Of a DNA stretch of 33,719 nt, positions 28,618 through 33,719 are shown one piece after another. Source of the DNA: Candidatus Wildermuthbacteria bacterium RIFCSPHIGHO2_02_FULL_45_25 (GTDB lineage: Bacteria > Patescibacteriota > Minisyncoccia > Minisyncoccales > UBA10102). The first letter of the stretch is position 1; the number at the start of each line of letters is the position of its first letter. The position numbers were made by a program, and so were the translations under genes. The stretch lies in assembly GCA_001823215.1 (NCBI GenBank), contig MHTV01000040.1, positions 1-33,719 on the forward strand, in the 5' to 3' direction. Under the pieces are notes generated by a model. That model had not been told where the DNA came from. It searched no databases and saw only the letters and a list, made by a program, of their open reading frames with translations.

Positions 28618-28848
28618 TTAGCAGGCATCTTCGGAAGAATCGTCTTGGTATCGAGGCGGGAGATGCCTAGACTTATTTGTGAGCCGTTCGTCTCCCCATG
28701 TGTATGGGTGGTCGATATAATTTTTGAACTCCTTTTCTTCGCTGCAGATTCGGCAAACGCCCTTGCTTTGCGGCCCTTCTGCGGGTTGTATGATCCAGTA
28801 GTGTGTACAGAGAGGAGTTCGTTGTTTATCAAATGGACTGTCAGACAT
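28618..28848 (-). CDS. Small conserved protein with a probable zinc site
   Basis: 76 residues. The middle reads CTHYWIIQPAEGPQSKGVCR followed by ICSEEKEFKNYI. I know this pattern (C-x-H-x-W-x-I ... GP.SKGVC..C..E.EF.N) from short hypothetical proteins in Chloroflexi, Actinobacteria and CPR genomes. C14, H16, C32 and C35 could hold a zinc. The gene has its own promoter, an AAGGGGGC ribosome site 5 bases before the ATG and a terminator, so it is expressed alone. The function is unknown; a role in regulation or nucleic acid binding is only a guess. Confidence 0.75.
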   Translation of the reverse strand: MSDSPFDKQRTPLCTHYWIIQPAEGPQSKGVCRICSEEKEFKNYIDHPYTWGDERLTNKSRHLPPRYQDDSSEDAC

Positions 28849-28889
28849 GGGTTGCCCCCTTATGAAAACAATAGAGCGTTTCCGCCTTG

Positions 28890-28917
28890 AGTATACTTGG
28901 TTTTCTGAAAAAGTCCA
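28890..28917 (-). promoter_or_regulatory. Promoter of the small zinc-binding-like gene
   Basis: On the minus strand TGGACT (28917-28912), a 16-base spacer and TATACT (28895-28890), giving a leader of about 35 bases with a ribosome site. Confidence 0.5.
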
Positions 28918-28924
28918 GATGATG

Positions 28925-28958
28925 ACTTTGAATTACGCAAGCAATTGCGTAATTCAAA
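28925..28958. repeat. Minimal palindrome made of the repeat-family ends only
   Basis: CTTTGAATTACGCAA and TTGCGTAATTCAAAG form a perfect 15-base stem around the loop GCAA. The first 12 bases equal the constant end of the three larger elements. There is no core and no variable arm part. It may be an excision scar or a minimal hairpin. On both strands it could also act as a weak terminator-like stem. Confidence 0.75.
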
Positions 28959-29002
28959 GTTTGTAAATAAAATGTCAGTTCTTTTTGGCAGTATTCTTAA
29001 CG

Positions 29003-29590
29003 CTATTCTTTTGAAAAATGCCTATTCTTCAAAAATTTAGTAAAATCATACATCTCCGTTTGGTAGAGTTCAAGTTTTTGTTTTTGTTCTTCGGGAGTAA
29101 GTATAGCCGCCATCTTCGCGCCGAAACTCTGAACACGAAAACCGCCAAATGCGCCAACTCCGTCAAAAACAAGTCGCGCATCAAATGGAGTTTGTCGTTC
29201 TTTGTAAAATTCTTCAAGAAATCTCATCATTTTCTGTTGTTGTTTAAAATTCTCAACAGTCCACTCCCGTTTCTTTTCCTCACTGTACTCCCAACCCTCT
29301 GGTTCAGGAGCATAAACTTCAACCCACGGATACGGCAAGCCGTGTTGGTCTTCTCCTTCTTGGGCCATATGACCTTCACAAGAGCCACTCGTAGTAAATT
29401 CGTGAATCAAAAAAGCGGCAACGGGCTCTTTAATTTTTTCGTCAATTCCCTTGCCAAGTTGGTCGGCAATTTCATTTACTTCTGCCATCTTTTGTTCCCA
29501 CGCAATTTGCTTTTCCGCTTGCGCGAGGCGGTTCAGAGTTGAAATTTGGTTTTCTGGATTCATTATGATTAAAAAATTTTCTTCCTCCAT
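29003..29590 (-). CDS. Conserved hypothetical protein of CPR type
   Basis: 195 residues from the ATG at 29588-29590, or 186 from the ATG at 29561-29563 (MNPENQISTLNRLAQAEKQI), which looks like a more natural start; neither has a good ribosome site. The protein is soluble and charged. The middle has AAFLIHEFTTSGSCEGHMA, then a tryptophan/tyrosine-rich stretch (YPWVEVYAPEPEGWEYSEE) and a helical end. A histidine-cysteine-histidine set in HEFTTSGSCEGH could bind metal. Similar proteins occur as hypotheticals in CPR genomes; I know no function. A GCCGCC-TGC-GGCGGC hairpin lies upstream. Confidence 0.7.
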   Translation of the reverse strand: MEEENFLIIMNPENQISTLNRLAQAEKQIAWEQKMAEVNEIADQLGKGIDEKIKEPVAAFLIHEFTTSGSCEGHMAQEGEDQHGLPYPWVEVYAPEPEGWEYSEEKKREWTVENFKQQQKMMRFLEEFYKERQTPFDARLVFDGVGAFGGFRVQSFGAKMAAILTPEEQKQKLELYQTEMYDFTKFLKNRHFSKE

Positions 29591-29853
29591 AACGCGAAAC
29601 CGCCAATTCGTTTTTGCCCTGCGGAGCAGTCAATTCCGACCAAGTTCTGTATTGGTATAGTATTCTAAAGATAGTCCGAACGCATTTCGCCGCCTGCGGC
29701 GGCAAGGAAGCCCCTCGCGCGAAAATCAGGAAAGGCGGCGGAACCGCACGAATGGCAATTTGAAGTTTTTCTTTGTCGGCAAATGCTCTTTGATAAAATA
29801 ATGCTGATATACATTTTTGTTACAGCAAAATTGGGAGCCGAAGGGCACTAAAA
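29591..29853. other. Gene-free stretch with a small GC hairpin
   Basis: It holds GCCGCC-TGC-GGCGGC near 29689-29703 and otherwise no gene, tRNA or convincing promoter that I can see. The left side probably carries the control region of the minus-strand gene ending at 29590. Confidence 0.4.
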
Positions 29854-30495
29854 TTAAGGAATTATTTGGTATTGTCCAACTTTGATTTCAAATCCGTTCC
29901 AAAGTTTTGTTTTGAATTTAGAACCTACTTGCAAGCCAGGCAATGTTGTTTCAGTTTCTGAATTTCCATCTTCTCTAAATACAAAATAATTGTTTTCAAA
30001 TGTTATTTTAGTGGGTAGAATGTTGCGAGAAACAGTATCTCCTGATTGCGTTGTTTCTCCTACTAGGGTTATTATTTTTGTTGGTCTAACTGTATATTTG
30101 AAATCTAGTGAAACGTTTTTACCTTTCTCTACTCCTACTGAAGTCCAATCAAAATTAGATGAACCACCCGTTTCAACAATCTTGTCAATTCTAATAACTG
30201 CTACATCGTTTGGTACGCTAACTAGTTGCTCTCCCTCATAGTAATTTCTAGATTTATCCAATGATAACGATATAACACTAGCTTCAAATTCTATGTAAGG
30301 CGACAAAGCCATTTGTGGCTCTGGCTTTCCTAAATTTCCTTGGGATGTTGGTGTGGGGGTGGGACTTGGAGTTGGTGAAGGAATAGGCGCGGGTGAAAGT
30401 GTTCGTTGATTCAGAATAAAATAACCCGCTATGCCAGCAAGTATAACTATCCCAATAATCACTATGATATTTACAAAACCTTTTTGATCGTTCAT
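29854..30495 (-). CDS. Signal-anchored hypothetical protein with PT-rich linker
   Basis: 213 residues. The N-terminus NDQKGFVNIIVIIGIVILAG resembles the short anchor or prepilin-like start common in CPR exported proteins: a charged lead, G-F, then a hydrophobic helix to about residue 28. A proline/threonine/serine linker follows (about 33-52). The rest is a beta-rich outer domain (about 66-213) with ASVISLSLDKSRNYYEGEQL and VSLDFKYTVRPTKIITLVGE. I recognise no family. It has no clear ribosome site or terminator. It is probably exposed at the surface; whether the anchor is processed by a prepilin peptidase cannot be judged. Confidence 0.7.
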   Translation of the reverse strand: MNDQKGFVNIIVIIGIVILAGIAGYFILNQRTLSPAPIPSPTPSPTPTPTSQGNLGKPEPQMALSPYIEFEASVISLSLDKSRNYYEGEQLVSVPNDVAVIRIDKIVETGGSSNFDWTSVGVEKGKNVSLDFKYTVRPTKIITLVGETTQSGDTVSRNILPTKITFENNYFVFREDGNSETETTLPGLQVGSKFKTKLWNGFEIKVGQYQIIP

Positions 30496-30717
30496 ATTTG
30501 TATATTTAGTACTTAATAATTTTCGACTTCTATGATTAAAAAATTTCCTTTTCCCAAACTTGAATACACATTAGTCGCCGAGCGAAGCGAACCAAAACCG
30601 CTTGCTATTCCCTTTCTGGTGCCCTTTGTTTGAAAATGCGCGAACCCACTTTGAGCGGAAACTGAACGGTGTTTCTTAAAATCATTGTATCAAAAATTTC
30701 TGAAAATAACTAATCAC
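30496..30717. other. Gene-free stretch upstream of the 30495 gene
   Basis: It is 222 bases with an AT-rich start (AATTATTAAGTACTAAATATAC on the minus strand, split into possible -10 boxes) and no open frame of note. It ends at the left long inverted repeat. Confidence 0.35.
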
Positions 30718-30967
30718 GAAATGCCTCCGCGCCCCGCCTTTGGCGGGGCTACGCCTCAACAAAATTTTCTTCTCCAATTTTCGGATTTCGCGCGTTCCCC
30801 ACAAGAAAATCAAATAAGGAAGAAGAAGATTTTGTTTTGGCGTTCTGCCCTCTATCGGGCAGGCGGAGGCGGTCTGACGCTCGTGGGCAAAAAGTTTCCC
30901 TCCCACTAAAACCCCCTTCCACTTTTTACCCGCTCGCCAAAAATGCGTGGCCGGGCTTTACAAAACA
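30718..30967. repeat. Long structured inverted repeat, left copy
   Basis: Its reverse complement aligns along its whole length with 33069-33310, at roughly 85 percent identity by eye with a few small gaps. Inside are nested foldbacks: GCCTCCGC / GCGGAGGC as an outer stem, CTGCCC-GGGCAG, an AAAATTTTCTTCTCC foldback and CCCCGCC-TTT-GGCGGGG. Short open frames over it are low-complexity shadows. It forms the left border of the segment with the ASCH genes. Confidence 0.8.
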
Positions 30968-31086
30968 ACTCAAGAGTGATAAGGTGATGTATCCTTGAGA
31001 TGGTCTCAGTGTGTGCTCTTTAACAACCAAAACCTTAGAGCTACGCATACTTTTAACGAAGTAGTGGCTCGGCAAAGGAGGTCAAA

Positions 31087-32436
31087 ATGACCGACACTAA
31101 CATACTGATCCGAGATGCTCGCGAAGACGACTTCGAATGGGTCGAGAACCTAATGCAGAACGCTCTTGAAGCGTATTACGGTGGCGATCACCGCGCTCAC
31201 GCAAGGCGCATCTTTGATGTACACATTAGTGGTGGCGTTGATCGTCTTGGTTTCTTCTCTTTCGAGCAACGCATGTTCATCGCAGAAGTGGACGGCGAAT
31301 GCGCGGGAATGATACACGTGGTTGGCAAACGCCAATCAACATACAAGATCAGCCCGCTCATCGTGGCACCTGAATTTCAAGGTAGCTATGGTCTTGGTAG
31401 TCGCCTCCTCTCGCACGCTGAAAGCTATGCGAGAGGACAGCAAGCCAGACAGCTCTACTGCACCGTGGCCGAGCAAAATGTTGTTGCACTCCAGTTCTTC
31501 CTCCGCAAAGGTTTTATCAGGGCCGGAAGCTCCGACAGTCACTACAAAACTGGCGTGACGGAAACCATGCTCTACAAACCTTTGTACGGAGCGAGCAAAA
31601 TCATGTCGCTCGATCAGCTTCATGTCTCGGTGTTGCCCCTCGATGAGAGCAATGAAGAGATGAAAGAGCAGGTTGGGCGAATACTCCTCGAAAATCTGCG
31701 GGATTCGTTCGAGGGCATTACGGATGATTGGGTGCGTGGACTTTTCGACGGTTACAGCCGCAGAAGCACGCTCGACATCAACACCAAGTACAAGCTCATC
31801 TATGTTGCGACCGACAGCACGGGCAGGGTCATCGGCGTGGCCGGAGCGACACCAAAGAAAGGAAGCTCTATCAAAGTGATGCCGTTCATCGCAACTAATC
31901 CGGTTGCGTTTGAGGCATTGCTGATAGACATTCCGCACCAGTTGGTGCCATACGGGCACAAGTTGTACATCCACATCAATCCGACCGCGGACGAGGTCAT
32001 CTCGCTTCAGCGGCTGGGTTGGAAATTGGACGCGGCCATGCCTGCTGGCTATCACCCGAACGTCGTCACGCAACAGTGGAGCTTGGACATAGGAGAAACG
32101 ACCATGAGAACAATGAGAATCAAACGAAGGTTCTACGACTTGATTCAGTCAGGGAAAAAGACCCTCGAAGTGCGTGTTGGCTACGATTCGATCAATCGTA
32201 TCCAAGTCGGTGAACGTATCCGCCTCGTGACCCACACCGGAAATTTCGAAGTGAAGGTCAGCGATATCAGACGATATCAGACTTTCAAAGAGATGATTGG
32301 TGTGGAGCCATGGGAACGGATCGCTCCCGACTCGAGGTCACGCGACGAAGTGCTTGCCTTGTTTAAGCAGATTTACCCTGCGGACAAGGAGAAGCTCGGC
32401 GTTGTTGTACTCGAGTTCGCTCAGATCGGGAAGTAA
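31087..32436 (+). CDS. GNAT acetyltransferase-GNAT-like-ASCH fusion protein
   Basis: 449 residues, a strong ribosome site (AAAGGAGG, 7 bases before ATG 31087) and a perfect terminator. Domain 1 (about 7-165) is a GNAT acetyltransferase with the acetyl-CoA loop EFQGSYGLGSRLLSHAESYA (Q-x-x-Y-G-x-G) and a typical end EQNVVALQFFLRKGFIRAG. Domain 2 (about 178-335) has GNAT-like strands (YKLIYVATDSTGRVIGVAG, HKLYIHINPTADE) but no clear acetyl-CoA loop, so it may be inactive. Domain 3 (341-447) is an ASCH domain (MRIKRRFYDLIQSGKKTLEV, QVGERIRLV). Some ASCH proteins, such as E. coli YqfB, remove the acetyl group of N4-acetylcytidine, so a nucleoside or RNA acetyl substrate is a reasonable guess. The G+C is higher than in nearby genes, a sign of transfer. 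Confidence 0.85.
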   Translation: MTDTNILIRDAREDDFEWVENLMQNALEAYYGGDHRAHARRIFDVHISGGVDRLGFFSFEQRMFIAEVDGECAGMIHVVGKRQSTYKISPLIVAPEFQGSYGLGSRLLSHAESYARGQQARQLYCTVAEQNVVALQFFLRKGFIRAGSSDSHYKTGVTETMLYKPLYGASKIMSLDQLHVSVLPLDESNEEMKEQVGRILLENLRDSFEGITDDWVRGLFDGYSRRSTLDINTKYKLIYVATDSTGRVIGVAGATPKKGSSIKVMPFIATNPVAFEALLIDIPHQLVPYGHKLYIHINPTADEVISLQRLGWKLDAAMPAGYHPNVVTQQWSLDIGETTMRTMRIKRRFYDLIQSGKKTLEVRVGYDSINRIQVGERIRLVTHTGNFEVKVSDIRRYQTFKEMIGVEPWERIAPDSRSRDEVLALFKQIYPADKEKLGVVVLEFAQIGK

Positions 32437-32450
32437 TTAAACTTTCCTCA

Positions 32451-32488
32451 AAGCCCAGTTGGCGTATGCCAACTGGGCTTCTTTATTT
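32451..32488 (+). terminator. Terminator of the GNAT-ASCH gene
   Basis: A perfect 13-base stem AAGCCCAGTTGGC / GCCAACTGGGCTT with loop GTAT, then CTTTATTT. The T-run overlaps the end of the convergent ASCH gene (stop at 32483). Confidence 0.95.
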
Positions 32489-32824
32489 CACCAACGATAA
32501 CTTTATACCAATAACCCCGTATTTTTCTTGTTCTTCTTTTGAATAAATTTTTTCAATTTCCATAAGTAGTACTTCTTTTGAAGAACTACCGAAGTATCCT
32601 GAAGGAAAATCAGAGAAAAGATTTTCAAAGTTAGAGTATCGGTACAATGCTTCCACATTAGCAATAATTTTCCTTGACGGGTTATCGATACAAGTAAATT
32701 CAATTTGGTCGTCAATATTTATCTTTCGGCGTTTTTCATCGAAGAGGCGAGATTCAATAATTTTCACGCCGGCCGCAACTTTTTCAAAAGGATTGGCGCT
32801 CAACCTCATTTGGTGGATAACCAT
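32483..32824 (-). CDS. Stand-alone ASCH domain protein
   Basis: 113 residues opening MVIHQMRLSANPFEKVAAGV with KIIESRLFDEKRRKINIDDQIEFTCID, the ASCH pattern (L...PF..I..G.K..E.R......I..GD.I.F). A conserved lysine and glutamate (K21 and E24 in GVKIIESR) sit where the catalytic pair lies in YqfB-type ASCH enzymes. It ends SKEEQEKYGVIGIKLSLVK. The gene converges on the GNAT-ASCH gene with its stop inside the terminator of the other. Its start lies 20 bases from a 170-bp MITE. Base composition is AT-rich, unlike the fusion gene, so the two had different origins. Confidence 0.8.
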   Translation of the reverse strand: MVIHQMRLSANPFEKVAAGVKIIESRLFDEKRRKINIDDQIEFTCIDNPSRKIIANVEALYRYSNFENLFSDFPSGYFGSSSKEVLLMEIEKIYSKEEQEKYGVIGIKLSLVK

Positions 32825-32834
32825 AAATTTATTT

Positions 32835-33022
32835 GCTTATTCCCACTGGTGTTGCGTTAAACTTTTTTACACTCCGATACAATGCTCTAGATAAGCCACG
32901 ATTTGAGCAAAGGTGCCCTTTTCGACTTGAAATCAAGTCACGAGCATCACATCAAAAAACGATAATGAAAGCGAAATTATTTTTGATGATTTTACCTTAA
33001 CGCAACACCAGTGGCTTATTCC
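32835..33022. mobile_element. 170-bp MITE with 17-base terminal repeats and 9-bp target duplication
   Basis: CACTGGTGTTGCGTTAA at 32844-32860 and its exact complement at 32997-33013 bound a 170-base element with no reading frame. The 9-base GCTTATTCC stands directly outside on both sides (32835-32843 and 33014-33022) in direct orientation, the mark of transposition. Inside are the hairpins GACTTG-AAAT-CAAGTC and an ATCAAAAA...ATTATTTTTGAT foldback. I cannot name the IS family that moved it. Confidence 0.85.
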
Positions 33023-33068
33023 TTATTATTTATGTTTGTATGATAGCATGGCAACGCGGAGTTTTCAA

Positions 33069-33310
33069 TGTTTTGTAAAGCCCAGCCATGTATTTTCGGC
33101 GAGCGGGCAAAAAGTGGAATGGGGCATGGGGGGAGGGAAACTTTTTGCCCGCGAGCGTCAGACTGCCTCCGCCTGCCCGTCAGGGCAGAACGCCGAAACA
33201 AAATTTTCTTCTTCCTTATTTGATTTTTTTGGGGGCGCGCGAAATCTGAAAATTGGAGAAGAAAATTTTATTGAGGCGTAGCCCCGCTTGTGGCGGGGCG
33301 CGGAGGCGTT
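33069..33310. repeat. Long structured inverted repeat, right copy
   Basis: It is the partner of 30718-30967, in inverted orientation. The foldbacks are kept: GCCTCCGC / GCGGAGGC, CTGCCC-GTCA-GGGCAG, the AAAATTTTCTTCT foldback, and CCCCGC-TTGTG-GCGGGG. The two copies together border 2.1 kb with the ASCH genes and the MITE. Confidence 0.8.
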
Positions 33311-33405
33311 ACGTTCCAATTTTTTGCGCAAAATATCCCGCTTCGCGGGATTGAGGCGATTTTTCATTCCCTCGCCGAATATAAGCCACGCCAAAATATA
33401 AAATT

Positions 33406-33719
33406 ATGAACACACTGCCACAACCAACAAAATATTTTCTCTACATTCGCAAAAGCACCGATGAGGAAGACCGCCAAGTTTTAAGTTTGGAAGCGCAACT
33501 TGCGGAATTGAAAGAATACGCGGAAAAAGAAAGTTTAGAAATTATAGAAACATTTATTGAAAAGAAAACCGCCAAAGTTCCGGGAAGAGAGATTTTCAAT
33601 TCCATGCTCAATAAAATTGATGGCGGTCTTCCTCATCTCATCGGGATTTTGGCGTGGCATCCGGACAGATTGTCCAGAAATTCCGTTGACGGCGGGCGTT
33701 TGATATATCTTTTGGACAC
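33406..33719 (+). CDS. Large serine recombinase, N-terminal part (runs off the window)
   Basis: 104 visible residues from ATG 33406 without a Shine-Dalgarno sequence. The catalytic segment YFLYIRKSTDEEDRQVLSLEA shows serine S17 in the Y-x-R-K-S motif, followed by the HPDRLSRNSVDGG motif with the conserved arginines of the resolvase active site. This is the N-terminal domain of CPR and Gram-positive large serine recombinases, which integrate, excise or invert DNA between attachment sites. The DNA-binding part lies beyond the window. It is next to the inverted-repeat segment, and it may be the enzyme that moved this region. Confidence 0.9.
   Translation, partial: MNTLPQPTKYFLYIRKSTDEEDRQVLSLEAQLAELKEYAEKESLEIIETFIEKKTAKVPGREIFNSMLNKIDGGLPHLIGILAWHPDRLSRNSVDGGRLIYLLD

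Follow-up and report, generated by a model that had tools for sequence, protein, structure and literature searches.

The window, that is, the whole stretch of 33,719 nucleotides analysed here, is the end of contig C40 in a Patescibacteria assembly of 868 kb and 46 contigs. Near the end of that contig, a gene for a double GNAT acetyltransferase with a C-terminal ASCH domain faces a small gene for a second ASCH protein; inverted repeats surround the two genes and a MITE-like insertion, and a serine recombinase gene follows (Table 1).

Table 1. Features of the locus, in window positions or, for protein domains, in residues of the fusion protein
Feature	Position	Strand	Remarks
Inverted repeat, left arm	30716-30967	+	252 bp
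Fusion gene	31087-32436	+	449 aa; GNAT-GNAT-ASCH
N-terminal GNAT of fusion	about residues 5-170		Pfam GNAT match 59-143, E 1e-13
Second GNAT fold of fusion	about residues 176-335		From structure model; without the usual acetyl-CoA loop motif
C-terminal ASCH of fusion	residues 342-446		Pfam ASCH 344-445, E 9e-9
Inverted repeat AAGCCCAGTTGGC-GTAT-GCCAACTGGGCTT	32451-32480		Between both stop codons; T-rich sequence adjoining
Stand-alone ASCH gene	32483-32824	-	113 aa; convergent with fusion; Pfam ASCH
MITE-like insertion	32844-33013		170 bp; terminal inverted repeats CACTGGTGTTGCGTTAA, about 17 bp, perfect
Inverted repeat, right arm	33069-33314	-	246 bp
Serine recombinase gene, start	33406-33717	+	Resolvase domain, E 1e-13; ends at contig end

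Architecture of the two proteins

An earlier note on this DNA had proposed a GNAT-GNAT-ASCH fusion, and Pfam, AlphaFold and Foldseek together reveal both GNATs and the ASCH domain. In the AlphaFold model (mean pLDDT 88) the strand and helix order of a GNAT occurs twice and is followed by the ASCH domain, and the best Foldseek matches are the tandem-GNAT structures 2wpw and 2wpx. The N-terminal GNAT, which the structures of RimI and Ard1 match with Z about 20 over 144-153 residues at about 2 Å, has both the fold and the acetyl-CoA loop motif, with G102 and G104 invariant and the Q of the loop motif shifted by one residue. The second GNAT is undetected by Pfam, although the model contains its full strand and helix order, and Q/R-x-x-G-x-G/A is absent after its fourth strand when the alignment is read against the model. 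Pfam gave no EVE domain match in the fusion protein. Among loci the fusion is unusually conserved, at 50-82% over its full length.

A leader, CCTT.GAGC-TACGCATACTT..AAGTAGTGG..CAAAGGAGG, is common to window positions 30960-31086 and to the regions upstream of the fusion in loci L010 and L018, where it may form a hairpin adjoining the ribosome-binding site. Leader hairpins before the fusion gene are striking by eye but do not stand out clearly from those of other genes (z < -2 in 4 of 14 cases vs 5 of 36 other genes), and were set aside as a feature of the system.

The convergent partner gene is present as the earlier note described it, with 46 nt between its stop and that of the fusion. The structure model of its product (pLDDT 95) resembles PH0355 and other archaeal ASCH proteins most and YqfB next (TM 0.73), and the protein is without a DNA-binding domain. 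Fused and partner ASCH represent two subtypes, with PF0469 as the nearest PDB entry of the former and PH0355/PF0455 of the latter, and they are the only ASCH domains in the genome to which the window belongs. The stem-loop between the two stop codons is likely a shared terminator of both genes, and stem-loops are found at the equivalent position in other convergent loci. A search for known RNA families in the window yielded none at the gathering threshold.

Surroundings of the pair

The inverted repeats, given as about 245 bases in the earlier note, are there: their arms are 87% identical with small indels (E = 1.4e-83). The MITE is likewise borne out by its terminal inverted repeats and by a 9-bp target duplication, GCTTATTCC, at 32835-32843 and 33014-33022; it lies 19 nt upstream of the start codon of the small ASCH gene and has one copy only in this genome. 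The serine recombinase of the note, putatively a large one, is present as far as its Resolvase domain goes: its first 104 codons lie before the contig ends.

What did not hold is the role that these elements had been given. Inverted repeats had been taken as the borders of a cassette, but in 11 other loci none longer than 35 nt surrounds the pair, and sequences that match pieces of the arms are dispersed in related genomes (6 of 40, the window's own genome included). Recombinases had been expected as neighbours of GNAT-ASCH fusions, but none of the 30 close neighbour proteins at other loci belongs to a recombinase, transposase, phage or restriction family, and a recombinase is present only at the related locus G114. 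The inverted repeats, the MITE and the recombinase are local decoration, outside the conserved module.

The usual neighbours of the pair at other loci are tsf, prfA-like, gpsA, typA and Mur ligase genes, and a single AAA_33/AAA_17-like neighbour occurs, in G200. A fixed chromosomal position of the cassette was considered and rejected, as the neighbours differ at every locus. The difference in base composition that the earlier note had seen is real (52.3% GC in the fusion vs 34.8% in the partner), but its conclusion that the set was therefore assembled does not stand: the fusion has the higher GC in 13 of 14 loci, mostly at third codon positions too, and the two genes co-diverge, so that the contrast is a property of the pair and no sign of recent assembly.

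Distribution and coupling of the two genes

Among about 85,000 species genomes, a pattern scan that was not exhaustive returned 14 loci, and a phylum sample added two more. With the window counted, and the duplicate contig L005 and the decayed locus L018 left out, this gives 15 independent loci, including L009, in which the N-terminal ~35 residues are missing. They comprise twelve bins that are patescibacterial or unplaced, plus assemblies labelled Myxococcota, Pseudomonadota (Thiosymbion) and Promethearchaeota; most are metagenome bins, and the taxon labels of short contigs (L011, L013) may be wrong, while the Loki contig measures 267 kb. Within Patescibacteria the fusion occurs in 7 of 380 genomes, one of these being the duplicate contig. 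No relative of the fusion was found in viral contigs, and plasmids and phages yielded only a Rhodococcus double GNAT, described below, and lone ASCH proteins.

The entire 4,979-bp contig of L005, from a Doudnabacteria bin of another family, is 100% identical to window positions 28733-33711, and was left out of the counts for this reason. Most likely this is DNA of the same organism put in two bins, one of which is then probably contaminated.

Stand-alone ASCH genes beside GNAT-ASCH fusions, as the earlier note had expected them, are the rule: a second ASCH gene directly adjoins the fusion in 14 of the 15 loci, L014 being the only one without. For the ASCH neighbours, the condition under which the note would have given up its reading therefore did not arise. 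The layout varies, with seven convergent pairs (gap 35-62 nt) and same-strand pairs in which the partner lies upstream (three) or downstream (four). The persistence of the pairing through such rearrangement favours a functional link over common descent of one neighbourhood. Fusion and partner distances are correlated in a mirror-tree comparison, both for the 10 loci whose partners are of one subtype (r = 0.84, Mantel p = 0.0008) and over all 14 loci (r = 0.66, p = 0.001). In a tree of ASCH sequences whose support values are modest, fused and partner domains form two groups, with the exception of the Loki partner. Because the pair recurs in very different bacteria and in one archaeal assembly, it is probably a real, previously undescribed acetylation system.

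We also used the fused-type ASCH by itself as a query against 362 Patescibacteria genomes. All nine independent strong loci (E < 1e-20) have a second ASCH adjoining, and at eight of them, rearranged versions included, a GNAT lies within the same protein: six are tandem-GNAT fusions, G287 has the order ASCH-GNAT, and G108 is a GNAT-ASCH with one GNAT. At the ninth, G114, the ASCH is a separate gene that is coupled to a gene for a 364-aa protein without family or PDB match, in which strings like HIGH and KMSKS are visible by eye. Weaker matches are unpaired, except for a decayed GNAT-ASCH locus in G080; in G253 a GNAT-like gene overlaps an ASCH gene. At L052:4394-6235 two convergent ASCH genes, one of which overlaps a 364-aa gene with HIGH- and KMSKS-like strings, have as neighbours an integrase, an EcoRII-like restriction-modification pair and a serine recombinase. 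The partner-type ASCH is also found alone, in about 10% of genomes and with varied neighbours. By eye, it appears fused to a phosphoglycerate-mutase-like domain at L044:970-1854 and to other domains at L047:1261-2790.

Relatives that may point to a substrate

A double-GNAT homologue in Rhodococcus (profile E 1e-48) carries a MazG-like domain where the ASCH stands in the fusion. It is a single case, about 31% identical, and it keeps the YGGDHxAH stretch. This GNAT-GNAT-MazG fusion lies within a gene cluster like those for cytosine-nucleoside antibiotics on plasmid p1 of Rhodococcus sp. 2G (NZ_CP018064.1, about 41-58 kb; L026/L028). The cluster encodes a cytosylglucuronate-synthase homologue (E 1e-56), NDP-deoxysugar enzymes, an aminotransferase, a methyltransferase, a nucleoside 2-deoxyribosyltransferase family protein, an MFS transporter and an ABC-F protein. 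We take this gene set to resemble clusters for disaccharide cytosine nucleosides, for example that of amicetin. Amicetin is a peptidyl-transferase inhibitor (PMC7040171). We found no description of this amicetin-like cluster in Rhodococcus sp. 2G.

The ASCH domain is a pocket fold, and its one well-studied member handles acetylated cytosine. YqfB is an ASCH enzyme active on N4-acylcytosines (PMC6972931), and amidohydrolases of its type use a catalytic triad of Lys21, Thr24 and Glu74 plus Arg26 (PMC6972931, PMC9599836). Both the fused and the partner domains share with these N4-acetylcytidine amidohydrolases the ASCH fold, Lys21 and Arg26, which are kept in the aligned sequences, but identity is about 13-24%, Glu74 is variable, and the nucleophile Thr24 is replaced by Glu in every aligned fused and partner ASCH. 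This replacement makes recognition of a substrate or product likelier than hydrolysis, and weakens the suggestion of the earlier note that the pair adds and removes an acetyl group. Judged from the alignment, the stand-alone ASCH is probably not a YqfB-type deacetylase.

Discussion

What does the pair acetylate, and what are two ASCH domains needed for? The explanation that we favour, tentatively and at somewhat less than even confidence, is a two-gene module for acetylation that has spread horizontally. Its substrate would most likely be a nucleoside or nucleotide of the cytosine type, and its ASCH domains would recognise substrate or product. The N-terminal GNAT would transfer the acetyl group from acetyl-CoA, while the second GNAT fold and the fused ASCH may hold the substrate, possibly a metabolite or a ribosome-targeting nucleoside antibiotic; the separate ASCH protein would recognise the acetylated product or tune the enzyme. 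The near-constant pairing, the co-divergence and the nine ASCH-paired loci of the Patescibacteria survey are consistent with such a module, and the lead to a cytosine nucleoside comes from the homologue in the Rhodococcus cluster together with the action of YqfB on N4-acylcytosines. On the other hand, the Rhodococcus homologue is one distant case, and the likeness of the partner to YqfB is one of fold (15% identity), with the nucleophile replaced. RNA or DNA could also be the target, because other ASCH domains are regarded as RNA binders or readers of modified bases.

A wider, and rather doubtful, possibility is an obligate read-out pair made up of the two ASCH subtypes, with an acetyltransferase at its centre. 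Systems of this new class would acetylate nucleosides or nucleic acids, could exchange their enzyme (double GNAT, single GNAT and perhaps, in G114, an unrelated 364-aa enzyme), and would serve against nucleoside antibiotics or invaders.

We regard as unlikely, though worth weighing, a toxin-antitoxin or defence function, in which the fused ASCH would recognise an aminoacyl-tRNA or some other nucleic-acid target for acetylation by the GNAT, and the stand-alone ASCH would neutralise or regulate the GNAT. GNAT-EVE operons, nearly always with a separate ASCH, follow such a logic (PMC7641849), the spread in Patescibacteria is patchy, and the related G114 locus has a recombinase, an integrase and an EcoRII-like restriction-modification pair as neighbours. 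However, seven of the 14 paired loci, the window included, are convergent and thus lack the co-transcription typical of type II toxin-antitoxin genes, the neighbours are mostly housekeeping genes, and the partner has no DNA-binding domain. The unusual conservation of the enzyme also argues against this function, and PADLOC gave no convincing match.

RNA modification, with PUA-like ASCH domains placing the enzyme on a tRNA or rRNA whose base is acetylated, seems improbable to us. PUA and ASCH domains are widely tied to RNA (PMC7641849), and genes for a tRNA synthetase, Dus and NusG lie beside some related ASCH genes; yet the pair is too rare for a standard RNA modification, the nearest structures of the GNAT are protein and small-molecule acetylases, and YqfB-type ASCH enzymes bound no nucleic acid in tests (PMC9599836). 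Finally, an add-and-remove pair of the kind proposed in the earlier note, with N4-acetylcytosine as the product of the fusion and the target of the small ASCH, is very improbable, since the fold and the Lys21 and Arg26 shared with YqfB come without its Thr24 and a conserved Glu74.

ASCH domains are widespread, and to our knowledge hardly any has been characterised. With two ASCH subtypes, an acetyltransferase and a Rhodococcus homologue, the pair offers a small, expressible system and a limited set of candidate substrates for asking what ASCH recognises. The pair would also count among the rare indications that Patescibacteria have conflict or resistance functions linked to nucleosides.

Comparison with known systems

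Two GNAT folds per chain are also found in the tandem-GNAT structures 2wpw/2wpx of the clavulanic acid pathway, whereas the C-terminal ASCH and the linked second ASCH gene are additions in our pair. The archaeal ASCH proteins PF0469 (1xne), PF0455 (1s04) and PH0355 (2z0t) are the closest solved sequences, the first to the fused domain and the others to the partner, but they are free-standing and listed as hypothetical proteins. A tandem-GNAT-ASCH with an ASCH partner was not found among open-licence papers, which gave only GNAT-EVE with ASCH alongside.

These GNAT-EVE systems are the nearest relatives in design. Bell et al. 2020 (PMC7641849), citing Iyer 2013, describe operons in which a gene for a (PIN)-GNAT-EVE protein is accompanied by an ASCH gene, and so, as in our pair, a GNAT with a C-terminal domain of the PUA/ASCH superfamily and a separately encoded ASCH. 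Such systems are described in prophage, restriction or defence islands, unlike most loci described here (the related G114 locus excepted), and with a frequent AAA_17-type ATPase neighbour; here a single AAA_33/AAA_17-like neighbour was seen, in G200. Compared with the proteins in that account, ours have a doubled GNAT, an ASCH instead of the EVE, and no PIN, and half of the loci are convergent. The pair works like a variant of this predicted GNAT-EVE and ASCH kind but is not classed with it, because the defining EVE feature is missing.
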